Below are positions 43,688-61,833 of a DNA stretch of 64,000 bases, piece after piece; position 1 is the stretch's first letter; each line of letters starts with the position of its first letter. The notes beneath the pieces are model-generated. The model was not told where the DNA came from, did no database searches, and saw nothing but the letters and a program-made list of their open reading frames with translations. Source of the stretch: Paenibacillus urinalis. Its GTDB lineage: Bacteria; Bacillota; Bacilli; Paenibacillales; Paenibacillaceae. Made by a program: the position numbers and the translations under genes. The DNA is taken from NCBI RefSeq assembly GCF_028747985.1, contig NZ_CP118108.1, positions 4,407,001 to 4,471,000 on the forward strand, written 5' to 3'.

Positions 43688-45118
43688 TTATCGAGCCTTG
43701 CGAGCTCGCTTTCTCTGCTTTCGTACCCCGAGCTTGGTTCGCAGGCGTTTTTTTCTAGTGATGGCTGTACTGCGTTTTTTGGTTTTCGCACGCGGTTTAG
43801 ATTTCAAGAGGGGAGCTTGCGACCGCTTTGTTTTTTTTCTTCGTTTTCTTTTGGTTGGAGAAGGCTGATTAGCGGCTTGGTAAGCCTGCAGAGAGATTAT
43901 GTTCCTTGCTGAATGCAGGTCAGAGAACCAATCGGGGAACAACGTGACCCACTGCTGCACCATGCTCGCGGTTCGCTTCTCATATGCTGCAGGTCCATAC
44001 ATCTGCTCAGCCTTGGAATGATTGTGTTGACCCGTCCGTGCAGATTCCTTCCGGTTGGTGATGAATGGGATCATCTTGGCGGCAAGCTCCTCTGTATCTC
44101 CCGGGCTGACAAGTAAGTGTCCATTGTCTACAGATTCCATCATTTCCGCGAGACCGCCCTGCTGAAAGGCAACAACTGGCTTAGCGAAGTACATGCTCTC
44201 AAGGGCCGTCATGCCAAACCCCTCTTTTACCAGGCTCGGAATGACTGCTAGATCCATCGCGCTGTATGCGCAGCTCACATCTTCAATGAAATCCGTGAAT
44301 AAAAATTGATGAGCAAATCCTGACTGCTGAATTAGAGATATGCACTCCTCATAATAGGCCGTATCCACTGCTGTACCGATCACCCAGAACCGGGTGTGGG
44401 GGAATCGTTCGCATAACAAGAGCGCGGATTGAATAAAAGGCTTAAGACCCTTTGCTTCATATATAAATGAGGAAATATATCCGATACAAAAATGTCCGGG
44501 GGTCAGCCCCAGCGTCTTCCGCTGAGTCTGACGCAGACCTTCCCATTCATCTGGTGCGGCAAGAGCTTCATTCCAGGTAGGAGGCAATACAGTTAGTTTC
44601 GAAGGGATCGAGCTGTGCACAAGCGGCTCAGTAACAGCATGAGAGATGGCAATCACCCAATCACTATGCTCATCAATGAACTGTATAGCCTCAGCCGTGT
44701 AAGGATTGGTTTGAATGATTTCAGTGAGCTTCCAGATGGCAGGAATGCCAAGTATGCGGGCAGCCATTACCGGGATAACATTTACACAGGTATTGGAGAC
44801 GATGAGGTGTGGATTTTCTTCATGAAGCAATTGCACAACTTCCTGGGAAGAAGGATGCTGCATTAACTCGGCAGCGTCCTCTCTCAGCTGCTCATAAGGA
44901 ATATACATATAGTGGAGAAGCTCATAAGGCTGAATGATGACTCGGATCTCAGCCTCTCTTGCCATTCGAGCGATAATTCCTTCACAGGGTACAACCAGTA
45001 CACAATCAAAATAGGATTCCATTTGCCTGCAGAAGCTGAGGAGCAGCTTCTCAGCCCCCGTGATACTCTGTGTACTGCTGATATGACTGAACAACATCAA
45101 TTTAGGTTTAAGTGTCAT
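43688..45118 (-). CDS. GT4-like glycosyltransferase with Lys/Arg-rich C-terminal tail
   Basis: A 476-residue GT-B enzyme. The N-terminal half starts LMLFSHISSTQSITGAEKLLLSF; the donor half shows CIGYISSFIYEAKGLKPFI and KEGFGMTALESMYFAKPVV with the two Glu of the E-x7-E motif. From about residue 418 the chain turns into a strongly basic tail (TKRKRRKKTKRS, KPRAKTKKRS, KKRLRTKLGVRKQRKRARKAR in pieces) with no fold. Such tails recur in this cluster. The ATG at 45118 has only a weak AAAGGG upstream, with a short TTG-started reading frame overlapping it. First gene after a 163-base gap from the CgeB pair. Confidence 0.88.
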   Translation of the reverse strand: MTLKPKLMLFSHISSTQSITGAEKLLLSFCRQMESYFDCVLVVPCEGIIARMAREAEIRVIIQPYELLHYMYIPYEQLREDAAELMQHPSSQEVVQLLHEENPHLIVSNTCVNVIPVMAARILGIPAIWKLTEIIQTNPYTAEAIQFIDEHSDWVIAISHAVTEPLVHSSIPSKLTVLPPTWNEALAAPDEWEGLRQTQRKTLGLTPGHFCIGYISSFIYEAKGLKPFIQSALLLCERFPHTRFWVIGTAVDTAYYEECISLIQQSGFAHQFLFTDFIEDVSCAYSAMDLAVIPSLVKEGFGMTALESMYFAKPVVAFQQGGLAEMMESVDNGHLLVSPGDTEELAAKMIPFITNRKESARTGQHNHSKAEQMYGPAAYEKRTASMVQQWVTLFPDWFSDLHSARNIISLQAYQAANQPSPTKRKRRKKTKRSQAPLLKSKPRAKTKKRSTAITRKKRLRTKLGVRKQRKRARKAR

Positions 45119-45281
45119 AGAGTGTACAACCCTTTAGTTTCCACTGGATTACGGATATCAAAGGGTGCCTTCACCTCCTTTTTCCAGGTACACTATAACC
45201 ACAATATATTCTGTATTTAAATATGACCGGCACGACAAATGAACCATACCATTCGTACAATTTCCACATCACTGTGCAAGC

Positions 45282-46448
45282 TCATCCGAATATAATCTGC
45301 AGCAGGCTGTTTAAGCGATGACTGTAGGTGTGTTCATTCCAGGTACGTTCGAATCCCCGAAGCGCAATCTCTCTTCTCTTGTCTTCATTTGCCAAATAAA
45401 ATTCAATCTTCTCTATCATTTCGGTCGGAGATTCATACGTTTCGATCTCGACACCCGGGGTGTAGAACCGAATCAGGTCGGAGCGGGCATCTGTAAGCTG
45501 CAAGGTAGCACACGCGGATATTTCAAAGGTGCGGGGATTGGGGGATAGAGGAGGGATCTTAATGCTGTTGTTGTTCATCGAATCATCCTCATGTGAACGG
45601 TGCAGGTTCAGGACGATTTTCGTTCCATTGTACACGTCCCTTGTCTCTTCAGGACTCATCCAGCGATTGAGTTCAATTTGGCTGCGATACATTTCGTAAT
45701 CGGGAAGTCGGTCCCACCATATCCCGTTAAACACTGTATTGTGAGACATGATCTGTGGAAGTACGGGATTAAAATACTGCACGCGGTTCCAGTAGCCAGA
45801 GCCGATGAAGCTGACATCTCTGCGGACAGCAGTCGGCGTCATGTTAGGATAATAGTGATGAATAAAGGCGCCGAACGGCAGATAATGCACCTCAGCACAC
45901 CCATGATTACGATACATTTCAACACAGTTGAGCTCAAGTGTAAAAATATAATCATAATGTGGAGCAATGTTTAGGGTCATATCGGTATAATAAGAGTCAT
46001 CCGTCAACCATACGGCGGTTCGAACCCCTAAGCCTCGAATTTGATCTACCACTTCCACAGGCAGGAACATTCCATCCAGTGCAAGCACAAGATCCGGCAT
46101 AAACATACGTACTGTTTCAAGCGCAGATTCATCAGGATTCACAATGTGTACAGCGGAGCAGAGCGTCTGCAAGGTCTCAATAATCGCTTGATCAATCGGT
46201 GAGTAGGGAAAGCCCTTCCCTGAGGAGATATATACAACTTGAATGGGGCGAACCGGCAGAGGCTCCTGAGCCCGGCTCATCAAAAAATTGGCGCGCCCTC
46301 TCAAATAGCCGTCATCGAACCCTCTTTGAAATTGCTGTCTGTGCACAAGAGATTCGGAATTGTAGCCAAATCTTCTTGTTGAAGAAGCCTTTTTCTTTGG
46401 TTTCTGTCTCACAGCCACGCCTATCGTCCTCCTTTTGTTTTTAAACAT
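45282..46448 (-). CDS. CgeB-family protein (spore-associated glycosyltransferase) with basic N-terminus
   Basis: A 388-residue protein of the CgeB/DUF3880 glycosyltransferase family; CgeB in Bacillus subtilis affects the outermost spore surface glycans. The catalytic part has VWLTDDSYYTDMTLNIA near residue 142 and the family signature NPRTFEISACATLQLTD near 320. Residues 1-30 are Lys/Arg-rich (KNKRRTIG, RQKPKKKASSTRRF), followed at about 40-50 by FQRGFDDGYLRGR, the aromatic-glycine motif shared by several proteins here. It overlaps the preceding CgeB gene by eight bases and is its paralogue. Confidence 0.9.
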   Translation of the reverse strand: MFKNKRRTIGVAVRQKPKKKASSTRRFGYNSESLVHRQQFQRGFDDGYLRGRANFLMSRAQEPLPVRPIQVVYISSGKGFPYSPIDQAIIETLQTLCSAVHIVNPDESALETVRMFMPDLVLALDGMFLPVEVVDQIRGLGVRTAVWLTDDSYYTDMTLNIAPHYDYIFTLELNCVEMYRNHGCAEVHYLPFGAFIHHYYPNMTPTAVRRDVSFIGSGYWNRVQYFNPVLPQIMSHNTVFNGIWWDRLPDYEMYRSQIELNRWMSPEETRDVYNGTKIVLNLHRSHEDDSMNNNSIKIPPLSPNPRTFEISACATLQLTDARSDLIRFYTPGVEIETYESPTEMIEKIEFYLANEDKRREIALRGFERTWNEHTYSHRLNSLLQIIFG

Positions 46449-47511
46449 GATTTAGCAGCATCTCAAGCCGGTGCTTCATGGTATGGCGCAGATTCGTCGT
46501 CATGAGACCTCGCCAGGCAACAGACAGACGCTCTTGTTCGTGCGTAAGATAATATTCCATTTTCTCCTGGAGGTCTTGTGCCGTATGAAAGGTCTCAATG
46601 TCATATCCCGGTCGATAATACAGCGTGAGATCATCTCGTACATCCGTCAATTGGAGCGTGCCGCAGGCACTGATCTCATACGTGCGGGGATTGATAGAGC
46701 CGCCCTGAATTTGATGGGTATTTCGATTATCTAATCCCGCTTCGCAAGGTCTGTGCATATTAATAACGATTTTGGCTCCATTGTAATAATTCACAGATTC
46801 AGCAGGCGGAATCCAGCCTGAGTGAATAAATGGACGAAGCAGCTCCAAATTGCTGAGCCGATCCCATTCCCCTCCTGCAATCATCACACGTTTGTTCTTC
46901 AAGTAAGGAGCAAGCGCATCGAACAAAGCGATTCGGTTCCAGAATCCACTGCCAATAAATACGATATCGTATCGATATTCCGGTGCGATTTGCCGCGGTC
47001 TGAACAACGAGGTATTCACTCCGAGCGGAACATAATGCACGTGCTCAGCACCCAGATTGCTGTAGAACGGTACTGTATTCAGCTCATGTGTAAACACCAG
47101 ATCATAATGCTGGGAGATCGATGCTGTTTCCTCTGTAAAATAGGGATCATCGACAAACCATATGGCCGTTCGGATTCCGTGTGATCGAATCTCTTGTATC
47201 TGTGCAAGATGATCTTCGGGGAAGATATGAAGTCCATTTAACACGAGCACCAGATCAGGGGTGTGCTCTATAGCGCTCCGGGCCATTGCAGATCGATCTG
47301 CCACCACGCATTCACGAACAGAAGAGTTCAGTGCATCGATGATCCCTTCATCAATCGCATCAAAGCCCTGAGGAACATACATGACCTTCAGATCTCGAAG
47401 CACGGGAGTAAATGGCTGTGTTCTGCCAAGCACCGCTTCACATCCGCCATATCGTATCCCCTGCTCATATCCATCCTGATAACCCTGCAGCCTCCGCTTA
47501 GTCCTGTTCAC
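46441..47511 (-). CDS. CgeB-family protein (spore-associated glycosyltransferase)
   Basis: A 356-residue CgeB/DUF3880-family enzyme. The N-terminus is short and basic (MNRTKRRLQ), followed at once by GYQDGYEQGIRYGG, the shared aromatic-glycine motif. The body has IWFVDDPYFTEETASIS near residue 130 and NPRTYEISACGTLQLTDV near 298. Translation starts at GTG (47511). First gene of the pair, about 180 bases after the terminator that ends the small-protein operon; CATATAGTT lies upstream, a near match to a sigma-K -10. Sugar unknown. Confidence 0.9.
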   Translation of the reverse strand: MNRTKRRLQGYQDGYEQGIRYGGCEAVLGRTQPFTPVLRDLKVMYVPQGFDAIDEGIIDALNSSVRECVVADRSAMARSAIEHTPDLVLVLNGLHIFPEDHLAQIQEIRSHGIRTAIWFVDDPYFTEETASISQHYDLVFTHELNTVPFYSNLGAEHVHYVPLGVNTSLFRPRQIAPEYRYDIVFIGSGFWNRIALFDALAPYLKNKRVMIAGGEWDRLSNLELLRPFIHSGWIPPAESVNYYNGAKIVINMHRPCEAGLDNRNTHQIQGGSINPRTYEISACGTLQLTDVRDDLTLYYRPGYDIETFHTAQDLQEKMEYYLTHEQERLSVAWRGLMTTNLRHTMKHRLEMLLNHV

Positions 47512-47693
47512 CTCTCGTTCTCACCCTCGCCCAAGTGGTATAGTGTAATCACTTCTAACTATATGCCAGGGTGTCAAATGCATCATGGACCGTTGTCCTC
47601 ACCTGTACAAATTTGGCTTTTGCCCCGAGTACATCTATCCTGATTTCTTACCTTAAGCCCAAGTTTCAAAAATAAAAAGGGCTTGTACCCTGC

Positions 47694-47753
47694 GTAAAAA
47701 AAAGAAAAACTGTCTACAAGTGACCGAAGTAATGTCGGCTTGAAAACAGTTTA
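47694..47753 (-). terminator. Intrinsic terminator of the small-protein operon
   Basis: On the minus strand AAACTGT/ACAGTTT close a stem that also contains CAAGCCGA against TCGGTCACTTG, followed by TTCTTTTTTTT. It lies 23 bases after the stop of the basic small protein. Confidence 0.75.
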
Positions 47754-47775
47754 TGCCATTCAAAAAATGAAGAAA

Positions 47776-48087
47776 TTATTGCGCCTCATAGGCCAGTTTA
47801 TGTCCATCTTCGAATCCTTGAGCGAACCCGGCGTTGAAGCCTTCGCTGTATGCGTCTTTGTACTCCGGTGCGGCGATGGTTTCTCGTGGAGACTGGACAC
47901 GTTTTTTGCGGAGCTGACGCTTCTTGCCCGCTGGAGATAACCGTTTCTTTACTCTCTTCTTGCTTGAAGTCATCTTGGTCAGCTTTTTCTTGGTCACCCC
48001 GGTGACCTTTTTCTTCTTTCTGACGGATGTAGCGCGGGCACCAGCCTTTGTACCGGAACCCGTTACCCTCTTTTTTTTTCTCTTCAT
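47776..48087 (-). CDS. Small basic protein with aromatic-glycine C-terminal motif
   Basis: A 103-residue protein with no enzymatic domain. Residues 1-70 are almost entirely Lys, Arg, Thr, Ser and Gly in runs such as MKRKKKRVTGS, KKKKVTGVTKKK and GKKRQLRKKR. The last 28 residues are YKDAYSEGFNAGFAQGFEDG and HKLAYEAQ, three or four repeats of (F/Y)-x-x-G. The same two elements occur as terminal additions on several glycosyltransferases of the cluster. GGAGGAG precedes the ATG at 48087. Last gene of the operon of small proteins. Not recognised as a known family; a role in localisation or packing at the spore surface is a guess. Confidence 0.8.
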   Translation of the reverse strand: MKRKKKRVTGSGTKAGARATSVRKKKKVTGVTKKKLTKMTSSKKRVKKRLSPAGKKRQLRKKRVQSPRETIAAPEYKDAYSEGFNAGFAQGFEDGHKLAYEAQ

Positions 48088-48155
48088 ATTTACTCCTCCT
48101 GTGGACTTAATCAACGATGAAACAGTTCACGGTATGACGAATTGAGCCGTACTGC

Positions 48156-48443
48156 TCACGTATTTCGGAGCAACACAAACGCTGTATCCTCATCAGGATA
48201 CCAGGGGGGAGCAGGGCTGCCTTTCTTGATCGGCTCAAGTGAGATCCCATGGATGCTCTCTGCCATCTCCTGCTGACATTTGGCGATGAGGTCAATATGC
48301 TTCATTAACTGTGCTGCAGGAATGGCTGCCAGCTCATAGCCATCTGCTATCGTCTCCAGCATACGAGAAAGTGCAGTCTGGCTTCTCGCAATCGACTCCA
48401 GCAGGGCAAGCTTCGCCTCCCTCTCTCTCGCTAACAGGCTCAT
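48156..48443 (-). CDS. Small helical protein, third of three
   Basis: A 95-residue protein not recognised as a known family. It is predicted helical: MSLLAREREAKLALLESIARS and ALSRMLETIADGYELAAIPAAQ, then LMKHIDLIAKCQQEMAESIHG, ending in an acidic, Pro-rich stretch (PPWYPDEDTAF). The ATG overlaps the stop of the previous gene by one base (TGATG), so it is translationally coupled. Three such proteins of similar length in a row suggest a heteromeric helical assembly in the spore cluster. Confidence 0.8.
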   Translation of the reverse strand: MSLLAREREAKLALLESIARSQTALSRMLETIADGYELAAIPAAQLMKHIDLIAKCQQEMAESIHGISLEPIKKGSPAPPWYPDEDTAFVLLRNT

Positions 48444-48766
48444 CACTTACCCACATCAAGATCCATCATAGAATCAAACGAACCGCCATCCTGCTCTCCT
48501 TGGCTTAACAAGGCCTTCAGATTGCTGTTCAGACCGGCTTCCATCCGATTAACTCCCTCAAGAAGCTCAATTAAATGCTCCTGCAGCTTAAGCGACATAT
48601 TCAACTGCTCCTCATGGCTCTCGAATACTGCCCCGCTTAAATGATTAACAGACCAATTTCTTATCTTCTCCGCTTCCAGCGCCTTAGCCTCCAGAATCAG
48701 AGATATATTATGCTGCAGCTTAACGGCAGCGTCCATAATTTGAAGCATAGATTCCTCTCTGCTCAT
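48443..48766 (-). CDS. Small helical protein, second of three
   Basis: A 107-residue helical protein with no recognised domain: MSREESMLQIMDAAVKLQHN, LILEAKALEAEKIRNW, then SLKLQEHLIELLEGVNRMEAG and an acidic end (DSMMDLDVGK). The ATG at 48766 is nine bases after AAGGCGG; GTG at 48775 is an alternative. It lies between two similar-sized helical proteins and is coupled to the following one. Confidence 0.8.
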   Translation of the reverse strand: MSREESMLQIMDAAVKLQHNISLILEAKALEAEKIRNWSVNHLSGAVFESHEEQLNMSLKLQEHLIELLEGVNRMEAGLNSNLKALLSQGEQDGGSFDSMMDLDVGK

Positions 48767-48789
48767 CACTCTCACCCGCCTTGTTGCTT

Positions 48790-49077
48790 CTATTCTTCAT
48801 CCGATGCAGCCATTTCCCTAACGATATGCGTAATGGAGTCAGCAATCATCTCTTCCAAATCAGCCAGATTACCCAAATACGATACAATTCCGGCATTTAA
48901 TTGTCCTGCTCCATCGATTAGTCCCTGCATATCGGTAAAATGCGGCAACATGTCCGGCATTACACTGATCATCTCTGCCATGCGCACATTCACATGCCGT
49001 TCCGCTTCCAGGACTCTTGCGACTTGATGATGGGCATGCGCTAGATGAGCGAGCACTTCATCGAGTTTTTGCTGCAC
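48790..49077 (-). CDS. Small helical protein, first of three
   Basis: A 95-residue helical protein, beginning VQQKLDEVLAHLAHAHHQV and ARVLEAERHVNVRMAEMISV, with a Met-rich centre (MPDMLPHFTDMQ) and an acidic end (AASDEE). The start is taken as GTG (49077), nine bases after GGGAGG; a TTG at 49086 is too close to that site. First gene of the four-gene small-protein operon, behind a good sigma-K-like promoter. No family recognised. Confidence 0.78.
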   Translation of the reverse strand: MQQKLDEVLAHLAHAHHQVARVLEAERHVNVRMAEMISVMPDMLPHFTDMQGLIDGAGQLNAGIVSYLGNLADLEEMIADSITHIVREMAASDEE

Positions 49078-49146
49078 TGGACCCAACCTCCCTCTTCAAA
49101 ATACAACTCAAGATTAAATTCCGGCCTCATCAGCATTTGCCTTCCA

Positions 49147-49175
49147 TAGCATATGCATGGCCCCGGAACTCAGTG
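49147..49175 (-). promoter_or_regulatory. Sigma-K-like promoter of the small-protein operon
   Basis: Minus strand: -35 CACT (49172-49175), 16-base spacer, -10 CATATGCTA (49147-49155). The sigma-K consensus is mACm, 16-17 bases, CATAnnnTA, so the -10 is a perfect match and the spacing is right. The start codon of the first gene is about 70 bases downstream. Confidence 0.6.
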
Positions 49176-49256
49176 CTTGTTAGACACGCTTGCCGCTGTG
49201 GATATTTTAAGGAACAATGATTGGCCATACAGGGAAGGTAAGGAGTCAGTATAAAT

Positions 49257-49290
49257 AAAAAAAAGCACTGGATGCTCTCATCCAATGCTT
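49257..49290 (-). terminator. Intrinsic terminator of the DedA gene
   Basis: On the minus strand AAGCATTGGATG/CATCCAGTGCTT with a four-base loop, one mismatch, followed by eight T. It lies 41 bases after the DedA stop. Confidence 0.85.
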
Positions 49291-49330
49291 GGTTGCTGGT
49301 TATATTTGGAATCATGGTGGAATCACCATC

Positions 49331-49957
49331 TTATTCTCGATTCTGCTGAGCTCTTCGGATTCTTCGAAGGATCCATCTTACCAGCTGGTACAAGACAAAG
49401 ACAATTCCAATCAGAATAAGAGTGCGTGTCAGCGACTTCTCCACCATGTTGAATACCTGCTTCCACTGCTCACCGAAGAGATAGCCGATGAGGAAGAACA
49501 CGGTCACCCACAGTGCCGTTCCACCATATGCATAGGTAGCTACGGTTCGATACGGAAGTCGAATAATGCCTATAAAATAGCCGATGAATTGTCTGACTCC
49601 CGGAACAAAAAAAACAAAAAGCAGAAGCTTGTCCCCATATTTGTCATACCGTTTTCTTGTTTTCTCAAGAAAATCCGGATGAATGGACAGCCACTTCCCA
49701 AACCGATCCACGAGGGGAGACCCAAATCTGTATCCGATCGCGTAGGTAATCGTCACTCCGAGACAGGCTCCAGTCAGTGCCAGCAGATAAGCCGGAAGCC
49801 ATTCCAGCAGTCCCAAATAAACAAGATATCCCGTATATGTAAGCGTGCTGTTGCCAGGGGGAATCGGCAAAGCGATAAAGTCCAGAGGCAGGCCAATTAA
49901 CAATACATAATAGCCGTATTGATCAAATAATCGTTCAACGACGTCAATTAAATTCAT
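49331..49957 (-). CDS. DedA-family membrane protein
   Basis: A 208-residue membrane protein of the DedA family. Features: GLPLDFIALPIPPGNSTLTYTG near residue 22, GYRFGSPLVDRFGKWLSIHPD near 75, the motif FFVPGVRQFIGYFIG near 115 and a C-terminal helix with a basic end. DedA proteins include flippases for undecaprenyl phosphate or phospholipids, so it might recycle the lipid carrier for the glycans built around it (inference). Single gene with its own terminator, AGGAGA before the ATG. Confidence 0.92.
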   Translation of the reverse strand: MNLIDVVERLFDQYGYYVLLIGLPLDFIALPIPPGNSTLTYTGYLVYLGLLEWLPAYLLALTGACLGVTITYAIGYRFGSPLVDRFGKWLSIHPDFLEKTRKRYDKYGDKLLLFVFFVPGVRQFIGYFIGIIRLPYRTVATYAYGGTALWVTVFFLIGYLFGEQWKQVFNMVEKSLTRTLILIGIVFVLYQLVRWILRRIRRAQQNRE

Positions 49958-50080
49958 ATAATCTCCTATATTCGGGCCCTAATGTTATTTTTGAGTAGAC
50001 AATCAAGGGCAGCTACAAACTCACTACTGAAAATATTATTAAAATTGGAAACTATAATCAAGTTTAACCCTTCCAGGCAC

Positions 50081-50120
50081 CAAAAAGCCGGACCCATGAG
50101 ATCTACCCAGGGATCCGGTT
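50081..50120 (-). terminator. Intrinsic terminator of the six-gene glycosyltransferase operon
   Basis: On the minus strand AACCGGATCC and GGTCCGGCTT form a stem with a 16-base loop, one mismatch, followed by a run of T. It lies about 56 bases after the stop of the operon's last gene. Confidence 0.65.
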
Positions 50121-50176
50121 TATTTATATTTTGACGAATATCCCCCTGACTCTAAACTATTACACCCTCATTCCAT

Positions 50177-51553
50177 CTATAATATAGGGCTGATCAGCAT
50201 AGGCGGTGCAATAATAGGAAGTCCTTGTGGAATGGATTGCAATTGTTCGGTCGTAAGCTCATAAATGTCTTGCTGATCAATTCCCCAGCACTCAGCTGCA
50301 TGGGGTGTAATGAACAGCCTTCGCTTTCCATCCTTCAACTGAAATAGATGCTGTGCTGCCTCAGGACTGCTGTCAGTCACGATGCTTCCATCAGGGATCC
50401 CGATCGTCATCTTCCCGGCTTGCTGCTGCTGTAACTCTTCGGGTGTATGGAGCTGGATGATATCCCCGGTTGGAATGGACTGCAGCTCATGACGAGACAG
50501 CCGAACAGCTCGATTGAATACCGCTGCTTGATGCACATCCTGCAGCTCTAGAGGATGCTTATGGCCATCCTGTAACCAGTACAGCTTGCTGCCGCTCGTT
50601 TTGACCAATCTGCGATCAGGATAAAATTGATAGCTCGGGATGCCGCGCACTCCAAATTGTTCATACGCTGCACCATTCGTATGCCGCGTTTCCTGAATCA
50701 ACTGATGCGGATTCCCCCATTTTGCCTCATAAAACTTCGCATTCCCATGATTGGTTTCTTCAAACTGTGAATTCTCTATGCTCTTCATGCTTACACTGCC
50801 GAAATGATGAATAAAGCTGTCTCCCGCGATGCAAAGTTTCCTCCCGGACAACCTGATACGAATCATCCAGTCATCATCCTCGTAATTGCCAATGCGATAA
50901 CCTTCGTCCAGATATCCAATGTCATACAGCAGCTCTCTTCGAAACAATAAACAGAAGCCTACAAGACGATCTGTATATTTCCATTTACCAGGATCAGGCT
51001 TATTAAACCCCTCTGCAAAGGGAAGCATATCCTTCACATCGGAGTAGGGAACCTCTATTTGCTGCTCTCCACCAATATAATTGGTGACGGGTCCTACGGC
51101 AGCTATACCTGCATCACTGTCCAAACAGCTGAGCATGTTCGTAAGCCATCCCGGCGTCACCACAACGTCATTGTTCAAGATGACAATATATTGACCTCTG
51201 GCCATCATCAGACCATGGTTAACACCGCCTGCAAATCCCAAATTACGCTCCAGCACCGTGTATCGGACATTCAAGTCTAGAGACCGGAGGTAATCTGCCG
51301 TACCATCCGTCGATGCATTATCCACAACTACAATTTCATAAGGATGAGCGGTGTGAGTCTGAATGCTGGCTATACATCCTTTCAATAGATCCATCTGATT
51401 ATAGGTAGGAATGACGATACTTGTTCCTTCCATCCACTTGCCGTATGAATGAATACCATGAGTCTTACCTTGATCGTACCCTTGTTGAAAGCCTTCCTGA
51501 AACGAAATCACTCGCGGCGTCTTCCGCATCTGCTTCTTGGTCTTTCGGTTCAT
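50177..51553 (-). CDS. Family 2 glycosyltransferase with basic/aromatic-glycine N-terminus and C-terminal repeats
   Basis: A 458-residue protein in three parts. Residues 1-40: basic MNRKTKKQMRKTPR, then FQEGFQQGYDQGKTHG, the shared aromatic-glycine motif. Residues 45-280: a GT2 domain (SIVIPTYNQMDLLKGCI, VVDNASTDGTADYL, NNDVVVTPGWL, EDDDWMIRIRLSG). Residues 300-458: two copies of a roughly 65-residue module (RRLVKTSGSKLYWLQDGHKHPL ending LQSIPTGD in pieces, and GSIVTDSSPEAAQHLFQLKDG ending LQSIPQG in pieces), resembling repeats seen in secreted surface proteins. Last gene of the six-gene operon. Confidence 0.88.
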   Translation of the reverse strand: MNRKTKKQMRKTPRVISFQEGFQQGYDQGKTHGIHSYGKWMEGTSIVIPTYNQMDLLKGCIASIQTHTAHPYEIVVVDNASTDGTADYLRSLDLNVRYTVLERNLGFAGGVNHGLMMARGQYIVILNNDVVVTPGWLTNMLSCLDSDAGIAAVGPVTNYIGGEQQIEVPYSDVKDMLPFAEGFNKPDPGKWKYTDRLVGFCLLFRRELLYDIGYLDEGYRIGNYEDDDWMIRIRLSGRKLCIAGDSFIHHFGSVSMKSIENSQFEETNHGNAKFYEAKWGNPHQLIQETRHTNGAAYEQFGVRGIPSYQFYPDRRLVKTSGSKLYWLQDGHKHPLELQDVHQAAVFNRAVRLSRHELQSIPTGDIIQLHTPEELQQQQAGKMTIGIPDGSIVTDSSPEAAQHLFQLKDGKRRLFITPHAAECWGIDQQDIYELTTEQLQSIPQGLPIIAPPMLISPIL

Positions 51554-51584
51554 CCTTGTCTTACCTCCTTCAAGAACAGCTGCA

Positions 51585-52616
51585 TCACTGCTGACTCTCC
51601 TGTATCATTTGATCCGCTAGATGACCGATATCAATGGCGACTTTTTTATCTTCACTCGCTATGCGCTGACAAAGAACAACCGCAGGAACTCCAGCAGCGA
51701 TTAAACAAATATCAAATTCATACCTGCGGCACTCCTCTAACACCCGCTCGATATCTTCAAATCCACGCACCGGGCTGACACTGCCAGTAACATTTACACC
51801 CTGCTTCCTCATCAAATCCGCTGTTTCTGCTGCTCTGTTTCCGATAAGAAGGACACGCTGCTCAGCAAGGATTGGCAGTAGCAGGCCATGATGATGCAGC
51901 TGGTAATTAATGAGTGAGGAGGTCAGCCGATTCTGCGTTAAGCTCCAGCCGTAATGCCGGCTTACGGCAAACAGCAGCATCTGGAATTCGGGCCGCCTGG
52001 ACATGGGAACCCCCACATAATCCGCCTTCATGATGGAGTCCAGCAGGAGACTCTGAACAGAAGCATCAGGTAAAGGCACCCCTGCATAAGGTAGAAATGC
52101 CCCTAACTCATGGGCTTCTGTGCTGGAGATTACCGTCCCATAAGCTAGGGTCAGCAGCTCGCCGTCTCCCAGCCGTACAAGCGAAAAAGACCGGCGTTCA
52201 TCCAGCGCCGACCGAATCTCATCCGCTACCTGTTTACTGTCTGTAATCTCAAGCATCTCGGCTTGATGCTGCATGAGACCTGACTGAATGAGAGCTTCGG
52301 CTGTAATTCCCGGCAGTATTCTTCCGCTTGGAATGAGCCGCTCTACAATTGCCTCCCCACCGTGGTACATTCCCTCTTTATACCCTGCGGCATAAGCCTT
52401 CTGAAGCGGACCCTCATGATCAAGCGGGAGCGGAGCCTGCGGTTGACGCGGATGTTTGTGCCTCTTAGCATTGGTTTTTTTCCTCATGGCCGGCTTTAAT
52501 TTGGATCCCTTTTTTCTGGCAGAAGCCTTATTCTTGACGGAAGACCTCTGCCGTCTCTTCTTCGCGGCGTGAATGACTGCCAGCCCGACATGATCCAGCT
52601 TCCTGCTTCGCTCCAT
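51585..52616 (-). CDS. GT-D-fold (DUF1792-like) glycosyltransferase with basic N-terminus
   Basis: A 343-residue protein. The C-terminal 230 residues fit the GT-D fold family: FSLVRLGDGELLTLAYG near residue 140 carries the metal-binding DGE motif, and VLLIGNRAAETADLMR near 255 follows. Residues 15-65 are rich in Lys and Arg (KKRRQRSSVKNKASARKKG), and residues 70-85 hold AYAAGYKEGMYHGG, the shared aromatic-glycine motif. Located between the nucleotidyltransferase and a GT2 enzyme in one operon. The sugar transferred is unknown. Confidence 0.85.
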   Translation of the reverse strand: MERSRKLDHVGLAVIHAAKKRRQRSSVKNKASARKKGSKLKPAMRKKTNAKRHKHPRQPQAPLPLDHEGPLQKAYAAGYKEGMYHGGEAIVERLIPSGRILPGITAEALIQSGLMQHQAEMLEITDSKQVADEIRSALDERRSFSLVRLGDGELLTLAYGTVISSTEAHELGAFLPYAGVPLPDASVQSLLLDSIMKADYVGVPMSRRPEFQMLLFAVSRHYGWSLTQNRLTSSLINYQLHHHGLLLPILAEQRVLLIGNRAAETADLMRKQGVNVTGSVSPVRGFEDIERVLEECRRYEFDICLIAAGVPAVVLCQRIASEDKKVAIDIGHLADQMIQESQQ

Positions 52617-52629
52617 ATGGATTGCTCCC

Positions 52630-53361
52630 TTAGGGTAAGATCTTCTTCATCTGAATGGCTGCATCCTGAAGAGATTCGAATGTCCCGGCATCACTCCAAT
52701 AACCGGAGAGAATATCGTACTCCAAGCCTTTCGCTCTGGCATAGGCATTGTTCACATCCGTAATTTCGAGCTCTCCCCGGGCAGAGGGAGATATGCCTGA
52801 AATAATATGGAATACATCCGCATCATATAGATAAAACCCAGTTACGCTGTAATTTGTCTCTGGATGCTCCGGCTTCTCTTCAATATATGAAATAAGCTCG
52901 CTATGCTCGGGATCAAATACAGGTACCCCATATCTTCTTGGATCATCGACTTCCTTCAGCAGCACTCTGGCTGTTCCCAGCTTCTGTTGCTTAAATGCGG
53001 TGACAAAGGGAGCAAGATCATCTGCAAACAGATTATCTCCAAGCAGAACAGCAAACTTCTCCTGCGGTAAAATAAACCCCTTGGCTAAATCCAGCGCCTC
53101 TGCAATTCCACCTGCTTCTTCTTGAATCCGATAGGTCAGACTCACCCCATACCCGGCTCCGCTCCCGAGAAAATCGGTATAGAGCCCAGCAGACTGCTTG
53201 CTAATAATAAGCATAATGTCTGTAATCCCTGCTTTGCGCAGTGTTTCAATTCCATATACAATCATCGGGTACTTGCCCACAGGGAGCAGATGCTTGCTCA
53301 GCAGCTGAGTCAAAGGATGAAGACGCGTACCCTTGCCTCCTGCAAGAATTATCCCTTTCAA
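52630..53361 (-). CDS. Sugar-1-phosphate nucleotidyltransferase (RfbA/SpsI type)
   Basis: A 243-residue enzyme that activates a sugar-1-phosphate, most likely glucose-1-phosphate to dTDP-glucose. Motifs: KGIILAGGKGTRLHPLT at the start, LLPVGKYPMIVYGIETL near 22 and VLLGDNLFADDL near 102. In length it is close to Bacillus spore-coat SpsI, shorter than RfbA. The start is taken as TTG at 53361, seven bases after AAGGGGG and matching the MKGIILAGG start of relatives; an ATG at 53367 is only one base from that site. No RfbB/C/D genes are in this window. Confidence 0.9.
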   Translation of the reverse strand: MKGIILAGGKGTRLHPLTQLLSKHLLPVGKYPMIVYGIETLRKAGITDIMLIISKQSAGLYTDFLGSGAGYGVSLTYRIQEEAGGIAEALDLAKGFILPQEKFAVLLGDNLFADDLAPFVTAFKQQKLGTARVLLKEVDDPRRYGVPVFDPEHSELISYIEEKPEHPETNYSVTGFYLYDADVFHIISGISPSARGELEITDVNNAYARAKGLEYDILSGYWSDAGTFESLQDAAIQMKKILP

Positions 53362-53375
53362 TTTCATTCCCCCTT

Positions 53376-54122
53376 CTATATAAATTGAAGTGGATCCACT
53401 TGCCATTTATCCATAAACAGCTGATGATTCCGCTTCACTAGCTGGCTCAGGCTGTCCTCACCTGATTTTCGAAAACTCGCACTGCCCTCATGGTGCACAA
53501 GTGTATCTCCACAGACAAGCAGCCTGTATCCGGCAAGCCTAGCCCTGTAGCAGTAGTCATCGTCCTCATAATGACCCGGGCTGAACCGTTCATCCAAATA
53601 ACCGATCTTCTCCAGCAATTCCCGCTTGAACAAGAAGCACAGTCCAACGATTCGAGGAACCTCTACCCAGCGTGAAGGATCATGTTCATTATGCTCTGCT
53701 GCAATATCTAAGAACTGGGCTTTGGAGTCAAATGGGATCTCCACCTGTTGTATGCCGCTTGCATAGTTTGTGACTGGACCTGTGATACCGACAGCAGGAT
53801 CACTGAACAGCCCCTGCTTAAGCTGAACCAGCCAATTTCGCGTCACGGTCACATCATTATTTAGCAGCAGCAGGCTGCTTCCCCTGGCGATACGCAAGCC
53901 GCTGTTGCATGCCTTTGGAAATCCCCGATTCTCCGGAAGAGAGATCACTCTAAGACGCTCAGATACGCAGTACTCGTAGGTTCCATCCGTAGAACGATTA
54001 TCTACGACAATGATTTCGTAGGGTTCCTCTGTCCATTTTCGTATCGAATCAATGCAGCTTCGCAGCAATTCAAGACCATTGTAGGAAGGTATAATAATGC
54101 TGGTTATCTCCTGGATATTCAT
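53376..54122 (-). CDS. Family 2 glycosyltransferase
   Basis: A 248-residue GT2 enzyme: SIIIPSYNGLELLRSCIDSI, VVDNRSTDGTYEYC, LLLNNDVTVTRNWL near residue 90 and GHYEDDDYCYRARLAG near 185. It closely resembles the GT2 domain of the gene at 50177-51553. The ATG at 54122 overlaps the stop of the preceding gene (ATGA). Third gene of the six-gene operon. It lacks the basic tail and aromatic-glycine motif of its relative. Confidence 0.9.
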   Translation of the reverse strand: MNIQEITSIIIPSYNGLELLRSCIDSIRKWTEEPYEIIVVDNRSTDGTYEYCVSERLRVISLPENRGFPKACNSGLRIARGSSLLLLNNDVTVTRNWLVQLKQGLFSDPAVGITGPVTNYASGIQQVEIPFDSKAQFLDIAAEHNEHDPSRWVEVPRIVGLCFLFKRELLEKIGYLDERFSPGHYEDDDYCYRARLAGYRLLVCGDTLVHHEGSASFRKSGEDSLSQLVKRNHQLFMDKWQVDPLQFI

Positions 54123-54994
54123 GGCGCATTTCTCCAACTGGCGACGGCCGCTCTATATTGAGGAGAAGGCTCTCCCATCCCTGTGCGGGCTTGAAGACAT
54201 TGCGACAACGCTTCAATATGGTCACCAATAATCATGCGCTCCACATCGTTGCCCTTGCCCGTATTGTCTTTTCTAAGACGATTGCCCTTTATCACATTCA
54301 CTTTGCTGACTGCCTCTACCTTCATTCCTTTTGTACAAGCCAGCATCTGTGCCACGGGAGGCACCATCAGACTCTGATACCCAACCTCACTGATACAGCG
54401 GCTGGATAAGGCATGAGGTACTGCGACAAGCGAATTTGCCGCAAGATCCCTCCGATCGAGCACCGAATTTAAGTAGGTCTTCATTCGTGTGACGTCATCC
54501 TGATCTGGAAATGCAGGAATATAGGAGGTTAAGTTATTCAACGCCATATCCACGCCTCGATCGACGGCCGACAGAAACGGGGCCAATCGCTCCGCCTTAA
54601 TCACGATGTCTCCGTCCGTAAACAGGACCATATCAGAAGTCGTAAGCTCTGCTCCGATTGCGCGTCCGACATCGTGCCCTACTCGGTCCGGTTCATGCAC
54701 AATAGTAACAGCCGGAAACTTTCGAGCGATCTCATAACTGTTGTCTCTGCATCCATTTAACACAACCACGATTTCCTGCAGGGGAAGACGACTCAGCTCC
54801 TTCAGCACTCCTCCGAGAGTTCCGGCCTCATCCGATGCAGAAACGACGGCAGAAGCTGAATTCTGCAAGGTTAAATGTAATGGTGCTGAAGCAGACAACT
54901 TCCTCTTTTTGCCTGGTGATTTTGACTTCCTGCTCTCCGGCTTCTTCAGCCCGCGCGAACTCTTCATTCGTACAGCCATCCTTCTCGTCCCCAT
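54119..54994 (-). CDS. Family 2 glycosyltransferase with Lys/Arg-rich N-terminus
   Basis: A 291-residue protein. Residues 1-36 are basic and disordered (RRMAVRMKSSRGLKKPES, SKSPGKKRKLS). The rest is a small GT2 domain: SAVVSASDEAGTLGGVLKEL, EIVVVLNGCRDNSYEIA, GHDVGRAIGAELT and VLFTDGDIVIKAERL with the DGD metal motif near residue 133. Paralogue of the next upstream gene (55005-56000), sharing GHDVGR.IGA and the ALS/AIS..VPHA segment. Second gene of the six-gene operon. Confidence 0.87.
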   Translation of the reverse strand: MGTRRMAVRMKSSRGLKKPESRKSKSPGKKRKLSASAPLHLTLQNSASAVVSASDEAGTLGGVLKELSRLPLQEIVVVLNGCRDNSYEIARKFPAVTIVHEPDRVGHDVGRAIGAELTTSDMVLFTDGDIVIKAERLAPFLSAVDRGVDMALNNLTSYIPAFPDQDDVTRMKTYLNSVLDRRDLAANSLVAVPHALSSRCISEVGYQSLMVPPVAQMLACTKGMKVEAVSKVNVIKGNRLRKDNTGKGNDVERMIIGDHIEALSQCLQARTGMGEPSPQYRAAVASWRNAP

Positions 54995-55004
54995 CCGGTT
55001 CTGC

Positions 55005-56000
55005 TCACCTCGCTCTTACCAAGTGCCTTGCCCTGTGGAGATCCGTAAATCCGCCGCGGCTTCCTTGATGCAGCGTTAGCCAGCGAACAGCTTCTTCATG
55101 ATCTCTTAGAACAATGCCGGTCAATAGGTCTTGGTTATGTTGATCCTTTCTTCTTAGCGGATTTAATCTCCCAACAGGCACGCGATGGACGGCTTTGACG
55201 AGAAGTCCCTGCTTGATCGCCATGGACTGAGCTAACGGAGGTATCTGTAATGCCCCTTCCTTGAGCATTTCAAATGCAGTTCTGCTGATCGCATGCGGCA
55301 CGGCCGTCATGGAGGCTCCCTTCAAATCCGATCGACCGAGCATGGTATTCAGTGCGTGCTTTGCTTCCACGACCGGATGAACCGGCACTGTACGAACGGG
55401 GCCATTATAATCGTTCAATGCAATATCGATTCCGGACAATACAGCATTAACAAAGGGCTTCAATTCCTGAGCAGGGATCAGCATATCCCCATCAATGAAG
55501 AGCAGCACCTGCCCTGCAGCTGCATCGGCACCGATTTGCCTTCCGACATCATGACCGAGAGCTTCTGAGTAAGTGATAATACGAGCTCCTGCTGCTATGG
55601 CTCTCGCTTCTGTCTGATCCGTAGAACCATTGACAACAACGATCACTTCCGTGGAAGAATGGATTCTCTTTGCTTCCCGAATGACGCGGGCAATCAATGC
55701 TTCTTCATTCATTGCAGGAATTATGACAGAGACTACTGGCTCATGAATGACAGATTCCTGTCCCTCAGGTTTCAGGTGATTACGATCTGATTGCTCAGCG
55801 ATCAGCTGAGCTGATTCGACCGAATTTCGGGATGTTGTCCGGCGATTTTTAATCGTTCGTTTGGTTAATCGACGCTTCTTCAGCGGCTTTATTTTTCCGG
55901 TTTGCTGTATATGGCCTCCCTTGTCAAGCACCCGTTTCTGGCTACCGGACCGGCTGGGAGCTTTTGAGCTTCGCTTCATTTTTCGATTGTTATCTCCCAC
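55005..56000 (-). CDS. Family 2 glycosyltransferase with long basic N-terminus
   Basis: A 331-residue protein whose first 70 residues are basic (NRKMKRSSKAPSRSGSQKR; KPLKKRRLTKRTIKNRR), followed by GT2: SVIIPAMNEEALIARVI, VIVVVNGSTDQTEARAIA, GHDVGRQIGADAAA and LLFIDGDMLIP with the DGD motif. Translation most likely starts at GTG (56000), seven bases after AAGGAGG; ATG codons at 56045 and 56033 lack ribosome sites. First gene of the six-gene operon, about 60 bases after CATATGCTA, a sigma-K-type -10. Paralogue of the following gene. Confidence 0.85.
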   Translation of the reverse strand: MGDNNRKMKRSSKAPSRSGSQKRVLDKGGHIQQTGKIKPLKKRRLTKRTIKNRRTTSRNSVESAQLIAEQSDRNHLKPEGQESVIHEPVVSVIIPAMNEEALIARVIREAKRIHSSTEVIVVVNGSTDQTEARAIAAGARIITYSEALGHDVGRQIGADAAAGQVLLFIDGDMLIPAQELKPFVNAVLSGIDIALNDYNGPVRTVPVHPVVEAKHALNTMLGRSDLKGASMTAVPHAISRTAFEMLKEGALQIPPLAQSMAIKQGLLVKAVHRVPVGRLNPLRRKDQHNQDLLTGIVLRDHEEAVRWLTLHQGSRGGFTDLHRARHLVRAR

Positions 56001-56199: not shown

Positions 56200-57210
56200 T
56201 TACGGCTGGGTGCCAAGAGCTATCCAAGATACAGTGCCGTAATCACTGCTGTCCCCGCTCAAACGTCTAATTTTGAGCAATACGGAATCTTTACGCTGCT
56301 CAATCACACTGACTTGGAAGTCTGTCGTATTGCACATGGCGACGAATACATAGCCTGCGGATTCAAACTCTTCCTCTAAGGAGACTACCACTTCTTGCTC
56401 AGCTGCTTCTTCCTCTTCAAAAGCAATAATATACTGCCCAAACTGCTGTGTAACCGGCTGCTTCGATGCCGAACGTACCGGAGTAAAGCTCAAGTGCTCC
56501 GGACACAGTGCTCCTTTTGCAACATGCTGACCTTCAATCACTCGTTCCGCCAGCTGCTCGCCTGTAATCGATCGTGATGCAAGAACTGTAGCCGGAAGGC
56601 TCTCTTCAGCCAGCTTATCGCCTGTGATGCTCTTATCTCGAATCAGCTCGGCACCTATTGCCCCCTCCTCGATATGAGCACCGCTGATGCTGCGAAGCCG
56701 AATATGGTAAGGAAGAATGGCACCTTCAAATATATGTCTGGATTGAATGGACGACTGCTGCAAATGATTGGAGCCAATGATCTCAGCCTGCAGATGTGAA
56801 CCATTAATGGATAATGGCATCAGATGCTCCCATGAGATGGAGGATATACCATAGTGCTCATGCTGAATCAGACCCGGCGTAAGATGCATGGACTGAACCG
56901 CTTCACTGGCAAGATGGGCACTGCCGATTGCACCTTCTTCAATAAGTCCAGATGTGATGGACAGCGCCTGAATATGTTCTCTTTCAATCGTTCCAGGCTG
57001 AATATGGTAGGAAGAGATCGAACCTGGAGCCAGGTGATGCTCGCGAATAGCACTGTCCTGAACATGCCCTGAACCGATCGCAGCTTCTACAATATGCAAG
57101 CCTTGAATACTGCTATGCTCTAAATGCTCCGTGGATATGGCAGCTGCCTTTATATGATGGCGGTCGATAATCTGCTCCTGAAGTGCATCCTCATTAATGG
57201 AAGCGTTCAT
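56200..57210 (-). CDS. C-terminal part of split decapeptide-repeat spore-surface protein (WIAG-tail like)
   Basis: A 336-residue open frame that continues the protein encoded at 57225-59579. Residues 1-240 are 10-residue repeats of the form (S/A)-(I/V)-x-x-x-(H/K)-(L/I)-x-x-x, in unbroken register. The last 90 residues form a separate non-repeat domain (EEEFESAGYVFVAMCNTTDF; VSWIALGTQP), resembling the WIAG-tail described for Paenibacillus repeat proteins. Coding in the same frame extends upstream of the first ATG (TITGRKLARASIGEVHL), so this is not an independent gene start; one missing base near 57290 separates the two parts. A terminator follows. Confidence 0.75.
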   Translation of the reverse strand: MNASINEDALQEQIIDRHHIKAAAISTEHLEHSSIQGLHIVEAAIGSGHVQDSAIREHHLAPGSISSYHIQPGTIEREHIQALSITSGLIEEGAIGSAHLASEAVQSMHLTPGLIQHEHYGISSISWEHLMPLSINGSHLQAEIIGSNHLQQSSIQSRHIFEGAILPYHIRLRSISGAHIEEGAIGAELIRDKSITGDKLAEESLPATVLASRSITGEQLAERVIEGQHVAKGALCPEHLSFTPVRSASKQPVTQQFGQYIIAFEEEEAAEQEVVVSLEEEFESAGYVFVAMCNTTDFQVSVIEQRKDSVLLKIRRLSGDSSDYGTVSWIALGTQP

Positions 57211-59619: not shown

Positions 59620-59628
59620 CATCCTATG
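59620..59628 (-). promoter_or_regulatory. Possible sigma-K -10 of the decapeptide-repeat gene
   Basis: CATAGGATG on the minus strand, one mismatch from CATAnnnTA, with CAC fifteen bases upstream. About 40 bases before the TTG start. Confidence 0.35.
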
Positions 59629-59750
59629 CACGGCTATAGGCATGTGACACTCCCCCGGCATACTTTCATGAAGGTCCATGCCCTAATTTTAGGCTTGTAT
59701 TTCAACGGCTCGATGGGGGCTGCTCTCCCTATCCGGACAAACCCTGCAAT

Positions 59751-61020: not shown

Positions 61021-61833
61021 ATGTCGAAACCGTTGCTGCGCCTCATGACAGAGCTTTCTTCACGCAAATGGATCTCCCGGCTTACCGGCACTTTTTCCAA
61101 GAGCAGTGCGAGTAGGCTGCTCATTCCGTGGTTTATCCGAACCTACGAAATAGATCCTAATGAGGCCGAACTAGAACCAGGCGAATACCCTTCCCTGAAT
61201 GCTTTTTTTACACGAAGGCTGAAGCCCCATGCGAGGCCTCTGCATGAACATCCAGATTCTCTGCTTAGTCCGGTGGACGGCAAAATTACAGCGATGAGTC
61301 CGATAACCAAAGGCACCATTCTTAATATCAAAGGTCACGATTATACCCTCGCTGATCTGCTGAACCAATCTCCTCACATGGAGAAGTATAAAAATGGGTG
61401 GGCTGTCATTCTGTATCTGAGTCCAAAAGATTATCATCGAATTCATGCTCCGGTCACGGGTAAACAGGTAGAGAGCGAGCATATCCGCGGTAAAGTGTAT
61501 CCGGTGAATGATTTTGGTCTGCGTCATATGAGAACCGTATTAAGCCGGAATGAACGGCTTATTACATATATCAAGCATGAGCATGGCGAGATTGCGCTTG
61601 TGAAAGTCGGGGCTATGAATGTAAGCAGCATTCAATATGCTGATGACACCGTGAAGGCTTGGCAGCGCGGGGATGAGCTCGCTTACTTCGAATTCGGCTC
61701 TACTGTCGTATTGCTGTGTGAGAACGGCACCTTTGTACCAAGGGAAGACCTGGCGGAAGGAGACAGTGTCCGGATGGGTGATCCGCTTGGGGTCATTGTT
61801 TCGAAGTCAGCAGCAATAAGAAGGCCATCATAG
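61021..61833 (+). CDS. psd: Phosphatidylserine decarboxylase
   Basis: A 270-residue membrane-associated enzyme that converts phosphatidylserine to phosphatidylethanolamine. Motifs: YPSLNAFFTRRLKPHARP near residue 55, LLSPVDGKI near 80, HRIHAPVTG near 140 and the self-cleavage site F-G-S-T near 223 that generates the pyruvoyl group (FEFGSTVVLL). The frame is open upstream to 60763 inside the YheC/YheD gene, but the ATG at 61021 follows AAGGGGG and matches relatives. The terminator at 61871 follows. Confidence 0.95.
   Translation: MSKPLLRLMTELSSRKWISRLTGTFSKSSASRLLIPWFIRTYEIDPNEAELEPGEYPSLNAFFTRRLKPHARPLHEHPDSLLSPVDGKITAMSPITKGTILNIKGHDYTLADLLNQSPHMEKYKNGWAVILYLSPKDYHRIHAPVTGKQVESEHIRGKVYPVNDFGLRHMRTVLSRNERLITYIKHEHGEIALVKVGAMNVSSIQYADDTVKAWQRGDELAYFEFGSTVVLLCENGTFVPREDLAEGDSVRMGDPLGVIVSKSAAIRRPS

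Follow-up and report, generated by a model that had tools for sequence, protein, structure and literature searches.

How the glycosyltransferases of late sporulation find the spore surface and act there in sequence is a question on which a minus-strand gene cluster may bear that lies at about 36.7-59.6 kb of the 64,000-nucleotide stretch of Paenibacillus urinalis DNA analysed here (the window; contig NZ_CP118108.1, positions 4,407,001 to 4,471,000). This probable spore-coat gene cluster encodes glycosyltransferases, sugar-nucleotide enzymes, a repeat protein, a WIAG-tail protein (NF012201) and small proteins. The initial annotation had pointed to an aromatic-glycine motif in five proteins of four families, namely two CgeB proteins (CgeB1 and CgeB2), a GT2 enzyme (GT2a), a GT-D enzyme and a protein of 103 residues (the small protein), and this was borne out, as the strict form of the motif, [FYW]xxG[FYW]xxGxxxG, occurs in 5/5 of them (Table 1). 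The small protein did prove to consist of a basic tail and the motif and nothing else. We propose, with confidence slightly short of even, that the helix formed by this motif brings transferases of three folds into one packed assembly with the tag-only small protein on the surface of the forespore, and that basic tails anchor it there.

Among the window enzymes of the probable cluster, tags were found on transferases only, the sugar-nucleotide enzymes being bare; tail, helix or both occurred on seven of the eight transferases of the studied block, with GT2b as the bare one. Shuffling the first 110 residues of each carrier, or the whole chain of the small protein, produced the strict motif in 0, 1, 2, 4 and 11 of 20,000 trials. 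Of 527 GxxxG (GX3) units at or next to strict motifs, about 80% have an aromatic residue (F, Y, W or H) at x1, a figure partly built into the search pattern. A looser two-glycine form also appears twice in DedA (49331-49957) and once in the minus-strand frame 61143-61331, matches that we take to be unrelated.

The distribution of the motif was followed in relatives of the locus, found by a search seeded with part of the small protein helix; 80 named loci were kept of at least 157 confirmed relatives, and neighbouring proteins were classed by their best BLAST match to the window proteins. Because the loci were found through that helix, the count for the small protein (44/44 with the strict motif) is ascertained and those for its neighbours are not: 53/61 for CgeB2, 41/51 for GT2a, 28/42 for GT-D and 28/69 for CgeB1, where 40 of the 41 proteins lacking the strict form still have GxxxGxxxG. 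One labelling step, based on the longest open reading frame (ORF), recognised only 8 small proteins in 20 loci. In the same 80 loci the strict motif was found in none of the transferases GT4 (63), GT2b (40), GT2c (44) and GT2d (49), none of the WecB (61), PolysacE (62), RmlD (57), SDR (57) and NTPt (52) proteins, and none of 124 hel proteins (defined below) and 405 unclassified proteins. As background, 1 of 790 neighbouring proteins of at least 150 residues outside the tagged families carried it. This sole carrier, a GT4-type transferase of Paenibacillus arenilitoris (locus L203, 13741-14919), has a basic N-terminus and the helix, and its window relative at 36668-37714, likewise a GT4-type transferase, is bare. 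The two-glycine form was present in 110 of the best 120 listed CgeB2 homologues (556 found) and in 105 of the best 120 listed GT-D homologues (300 found).

When the nearest genome (G001) was searched in six frames with a 25-column profile of the motif, the five proteins were the only matches up to E 10 (E 5e-7 to 1e-4). Since 5 of its 20 rows came from those proteins themselves, and hence from the nearest genome, two further profiles were built. With a ten-row profile from other families, 16 same-genus genomes were searched; the small protein was the top match in 15 (E 1e-4 to 0.04) and GT2a in the other. Among the weaker matches were GT2a and CgeB1, as well as proteins that read as FliH-like, GT2 or transposase-like. 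With a 16-row profile lacking that genus, the cluster ranked first in 12/12 genomes, and 22 of 27 matches at E<=0.1 fell inside it. At the level of the order, 72 of 99 genomes matched at E<=0.01. The initial annotation had proposed such a profile search as a check, and the motif did not turn out to be widespread. Across the phylum, 5 of 299 genomes matched at E<=0.001, namely three from the same family, one with a protein that reads like FliH and one with a short GX3-repeat protein; across the class, 18 of 200 did, of which 14 belong to the same family and four have proteins that read like FliH, one of these adjoining FliG. The motif is thus of the FliH kind and, FliH-like proteins aside, appears nearly confined to this clade in the genomes sampled. 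In G256, a distant member of the phylum (L109 / L260), a 108-residue open frame consists mostly of GX3 repeats.

At E<=0.01, matches to the small protein itself were present in 22 of 24 genus-group genomes and in 4 of 15 others of the order, and the window copy is identical to that of Paenibacillus sp. FSL H7-0326. The 80 loci bear the names Paenibacillus, Cohnella, Thermobacillus, Fontibacillus or Paenibacillaceae, except for one record labelled Neobacillus mesonae. Across the 99 genomes of the order, 67 had both a WIAG and a motif match, 5 the motif only, 20 WIAG only and 7 neither (Fisher P 0.016, without kinship correction). The best motif match and WIAG lay on one contig in 55 of the 67, within 60 kb of each other in 53 and farther apart in G109 and G113. 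For the remaining 12, the best motif match was on another contig in ten (G027, G033, G050, G060, G064, G070, G082, G091, G096 and G103), of which G082 and G103 had a second motif match on the WIAG contig; in G071 and G077 the position of the motif match is not in the tabulated matches.

In the enzymes read, the order was constant: tail, then helix, then catalytic domain. The suggestion that the module changes position, N-terminal on enzymes and C-terminal on the small protein, was therefore misleading; because the order of tail and helix is constant and only the catalytic domain is missing, the small protein represents the module with no enzyme attached. Measured between the last GxxxGxxxG and the first strand, the distance was 20 in 49/49 GT2a, 28 in 48/50 CgeB1 and 29 in 56/60 CgeB2 proteins that were measurable, and 92 of 106 CgeB2 homologues share one helix-domain spacing. 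For GT-D the spacing was ambiguous by the pattern used (18 in 12, 8 in 12 and 12 in 3 proteins). Most of the best 120 listed homologues (300 found) nevertheless have a conserved GGE.. segment after the helix, and the stretch ahead of the domain runs from 25 to 287 residues in them.

Outside the order, the strict motif was found in 0/22 GT-D matches (12 genomes). Counted from the earliest start codon, their N-terminal extensions were 7 to 85 residues long, or 113 in L124, which has two-glycine matches within its 824-codon frame. It was likewise found in 0/27 CgeB-like loci read there (32 outside genomes had CgeB-like matches), and the two closest of these proteins begin at the first strand. Two more distant CgeB-like matches in G001 gave no match to the motif profile, and a second GT-D gene of G002 lacks the strict motif. 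In L246 and L247 (G136 and G179, of another family) a related cluster of NTPt, GT2, CgeB and GT-D genes is helix-free, with a best 40-residue charge of +12 in one CgeB read from the earliest start; such a cluster is possibly the untagged ancestral form. Collectively, these comparisons support the idea that the helix behaves as an added module. Its description as portable held for its presence on different folds and on a tag-only protein and for its absence outside the order, but not for its distance to the domain, which is fixed in three families. A profile comparison of the modules linked CgeB1 with CgeB2 (92%) and GT-D weakly with CgeB2 (33%) and CgeB1 (22%). Common descent of all modules was not supported, CgeB1-CgeB2 alone being firm by this comparison.

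The initial annotation had further placed the motif close to a basic stretch. The best net charge over 40 residues was +21 in the small protein, +19 in GT-D, +12 in CgeB1, +7 in GT2a and +4 in CgeB2, set against a 95th percentile of +9 for 201 other proteins, so that the stretch is strong in three tagged proteins but weak in GT2a and CgeB2. Basic tails on three further enzymes lacking the helix, also noted there, were found on GT4 (+22, C-terminal), GT2d (+14) and GT2c (+13). Defining a strongly basic protein by a 40-residue stretch of net charge >= +12 (the 95th percentile of 291 unclassified neighbours is +11), we counted such stretches in 44/44 small proteins, 41/42 GT-D, 61/63 GT4, 32/44 GT2c and 23/49 GT2d proteins, in 0/40 GT2b proteins and in 1/289 sugar-nucleotide enzymes. 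Tail and helix are thus separable, since CgeB2 has the helix without a strong tail and GT4, GT2c and GT2d have the tail without the helix, and the view of the two as a single tag holds only in part.

Single-chain AlphaFold2 predictions were obtained for GT-D (67 sequences) and CgeB2 (34 sequences). For GT-D, residues 1-69, the tail, are predicted to be unstructured (block means 40-57), a single helix is predicted at residues 70-94 over the motif (79-82 across residues 71-90), and the predicted catalytic domain resembles DUF1792 (4pfx, E 2.4e-5), in agreement with PF22882 and NF040628 matches over cut-off. CgeB2 has DUF3880 and Glyco_trans_1_2 matches over cut-off, as expected of the CgeB family, and a predicted GT-B fold, with the module modelled as helices 3-14 and 17-30. 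The predicted local distance difference test (pLDDT) score averages 57 over residues 11-20 and 90 over residues 21-30; given this confident prediction, the distal part of the module probably lies against the enzyme that carries it, whereas its proximal part may be unattached. GT2a presumably adopts the GT-A fold of its family. Sequence searches found no solved relative of CgeB2 at E<=0.01 or of the small protein at E<=1; GT-D, searched with its module, gave only a ribosomal match at E 0.69.

The kind of helix is already known from two systems, and a limited literature search found no description of this helix module. In FliH/YscL, Tyr and Phe together exceed 45% at x1 of the GxxxG units and are favoured there, as are Glu, Gln and Ala at x3, and helix pairing was proposed (BMC Microbiol 2009, PMC2674601). 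The module shares with FliH a helix of GxxxG units with aromatic x1; moreover, the best NCBIfam matches of the small protein are FliH models (E 4.4e-5, 22.8 bits against a curated cut-off of 200), and most profile matches outside the clade read like FliH. Unlike FliH, the small protein ends after the helix, with no FliI/ATPase-binding domain, and the module is borne by glycosyltransferases and a basic tag-only protein amid glycosyltransferase genes rather than a flagellar operon. In Yae1-Lto1, GX3 segments on two different proteins are described as serving complex formation (eLife 2015, PMC4523923). At E<=1 the small protein matches a single Pfam family, PF09811 (Yae1_N; E 0.0077, 16.3 bits against a gathering score of 27.5); the module differs in being shorter, aromatic, bacterial and carried by enzymes, with no Fe-S link seen. 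Membership in FliH or Yae1 was accordingly rejected: the kind of motif is common to them, and the scores fall below the family cut-offs. The crust glycosyltransferases of Bacillus subtilis are reported to include CgeB, CgeD and SpsA (PMC10502511), so that the CgeB family and a probable role in spore-surface glycan are shared, and the strict motif sets the present enzymes apart from the 27 outside CgeB-like loci, B. subtilis not being among these.

With regard to timing, 41 of 51 loci have the pattern AC-N(14-18)-GCATANNNT[AG] no more than 200 bases upstream of hel3; its background over these loci is 0.06 per kb and strand. It resembles the sigma-K consensus. The hel genes encode three untagged small proteins, and the window shows the succession hel3, hel2, hel1, small gene, then a terminator-like stem with a T-run; the element before hel3 lends some support to a possible late-sporulation expression of the small protein's group.

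Taken together, we suggest the following arrangement. The module would be an N-terminal addition, made of a disordered Lys/Arg-rich tail, variable and sometimes missing, and then a helix of GxxxG repeats in which aromatic residues follow the glycines. A glycosyltransferase domain would come next in the enzymes, whereas the small protein stops there. Because its glycine face would permit tight helix-helix packing, we propose that GT-A, GT-B and GT-D transferases and the tag-only protein meet in mixed bundles, docking across proteins as the GX3 helices of FliH and Yae1-Lto1 lead us to infer. Basic tails, including those standing alone on GT4, GT2c and GT2d, would hold the assembly on an acidic surface of the spore as it develops, and sugar after sugar could there be added to one acceptor, perhaps the neighbouring repeat/WIAG-tail protein, which to our knowledge is not a known crust protein. 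Sugar-nucleotide enzymes may be untagged because their products diffuse. A bolder version, which we rate as possible but well short of probable, is a fold-independent assembly code, in which one aromatic GX3 helix, borne by GT-A, GT-B and GT-D enzymes and by a tag-only hub, zips a glycan assembly line together on the forespore with the tails as electrostatic anchors. An enzyme would enter the line once it gained the helix, as suggested by the one tagged GT4-type enzyme, that of L203, whose window relative is bare. If true, a short helix common to three enzyme folds with a natural tag-only partner would be a possible scaffold for enzyme assemblies, and the GX3 motif would be widened from FliH and Yae1-Lto1 to enzyme co-assembly.

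Several observations weigh against a shared assembly of this kind. The constant spacing in three families and the confident CgeB2 residues 21-30 point to packing of part of the helix against the enzyme that bears it, and in the profile comparison a common origin with the modules of GT2a or the small protein was not supported (1.5-4.4%). The strict motif is absent from 14 of 42 GT-D and 10 of 51 GT2a proteins; a strongly basic stretch was found in 0/61 CgeB2, 9/69 CgeB1 and 15/51 GT2a proteins; and 4 of the 11 transferases of the wider window cluster have neither tail nor helix, namely GT2b and the three encoded at 36668, 37734 and 39144. Glycine changes in Yae1-Lto1 are described as weakening binding without abolishing it (PMC4523923). 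WIAG without a motif match occurs in 20 of the 99 genomes of the order, and the reverse in 5. The promoter element is rare before other genes (GT2d 6/41, CgeB1 1/69, GT2a 1/51) and was found before none of CgeB2 (61), GT-D (41), GT2c (44), GT4 (62) and WecB (61).

The same spacing and the confidently predicted distal module of CgeB2 fit a rival that we regard as doubtful but serious, in which each helix is a private stalk that packs on its own domain or homodimerises, the likeness between families is convergence, and the small protein, a basic coat protein in its own right, has a helix that serves its homodimerisation. The fixed distance in GT2a, CgeB1 and CgeB2, the fact that the families' profiles have little in common apart from the GX3 pattern, and the dimeric state reported for FliH itself (PMC2674601) would all be expected, yet convergence would then be needed in three folds and a non-enzyme within one cluster and one clade, where 789 of 790 other neighbours are motif-free, and GT-D and CgeB loci read elsewhere manage without the helix. 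An arrangement in which the basic tails are the sole localisation signal and the helix a spacer between tail and enzyme would account for the tails alone on GT4, GT2c and GT2d and for the tail preceding the helix wherever both were seen; we consider it improbable, since CgeB2 keeps the helix with none of its 61 relatives strongly basic and the helix region of the small protein is 68% identical among relatives against 27% for the tail (in the helix-seeded search). Chance or composition, that is glycine and aromatic residues in low-complexity N-termini, could be invoked for the DedA matches and the weak profile matches in other proteins, but has next to no probability in our view and was ruled out by the shuffles, the leave-genus-out profile and the background count.

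Table 1. Positions in the window of the helix motifs, their carriers, the basic tails and neighbouring features.
Feature	Position	Strand	Basis
GX3 aromatic helix of CgeB1 (FQRGFDDGYLRG)	46296..46331	-	Motif scan, coordinates checked
CgeB1, DUF3880 + Glyco_trans_1_2	45282..46448	-	Domain match
Basic N-terminal stretch of CgeB1	46371..46448	-	Charge scan; rare in relatives (9/69)
GX3 aromatic helix of CgeB2 (YQDGYEQGIRYG)	47446..47481	-	Motif scan, coordinates checked
CgeB2, DUF3880 + Glyco_trans_1_2, GT-B fold (predicted)	46441..47511	-	Domain match and predicted structure
GX3 aromatic helix of small tag-only protein (YSEGFNAGFAQGFEDG), C-terminal	47803..47850	-	Motif scan; kept in relatives
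Small tag-only protein, 103 aa, final gene of hel3-hel2-hel1-small group	47776..48087	-	ORF and relatives
Basic tail of small protein, residues 1-69	47881..48087	-	Charge scan; K+R 36%, D+E 3% (mean, 80 relatives)
GX3 aromatic helix of GT2a (FQEGFQQGYDQG)	51467..51502	-	Motif scan, coordinates checked
GT2a, Pfam Glycos_transf_2	50177..51553	-	Domain match
Short basic N-terminus of GT2a	51512..51553	-	Charge scan
GX3 aromatic helix of GT-D enzyme (YAAGYKEGMYHG)	52359..52394	-	Motif scan; within predicted helix 70-94
GT-D fold glycosyltransferase	51585..52616	-	Domain match and predicted structure
Basic tail of GT-D enzyme, predicted unstructured	52410..52616	-	Charge scan and structure prediction
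Basic C-terminal tail of GT4, helix-free	43691..43858	-	Charge scan; strongly basic in 61/63 relatives
Basic N-terminal tail of GT2c, tail only	54875..54994	-	Charge scan
Basic N-terminal tail of GT2d, tail only	55821..55988	-	Charge scan
hel1, hel2, hel3, three small untagged proteins, helical by reading only	48156..49086	-	Same gene group as small protein
Sigma-K-like element AC-N17-GCATATGCTA, upstream of hel3	49147..49174	-	Pattern scan
Sigma-K-like element, looser pattern, upstream of repeat protein gene	59621..59645	-	Pattern scan

The proteins hel1-hel3 carry net charges of -3, -8 and -11, and none of the three has a Pfam match over cut-off. The RNA fold after the small gene gave a z of -0.88, and a separate terminator scan did not report that stem. 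In L034 (G025, of another family) two small tag-only proteins lie within one cluster. The repeat protein (57225-59579) and the WIAG-tail protein (56200-57210) are two ORFs in the window; the WIAG match falls in a 358-codon frame in G001 and in a frame of more than 1000 codons in many relatives.

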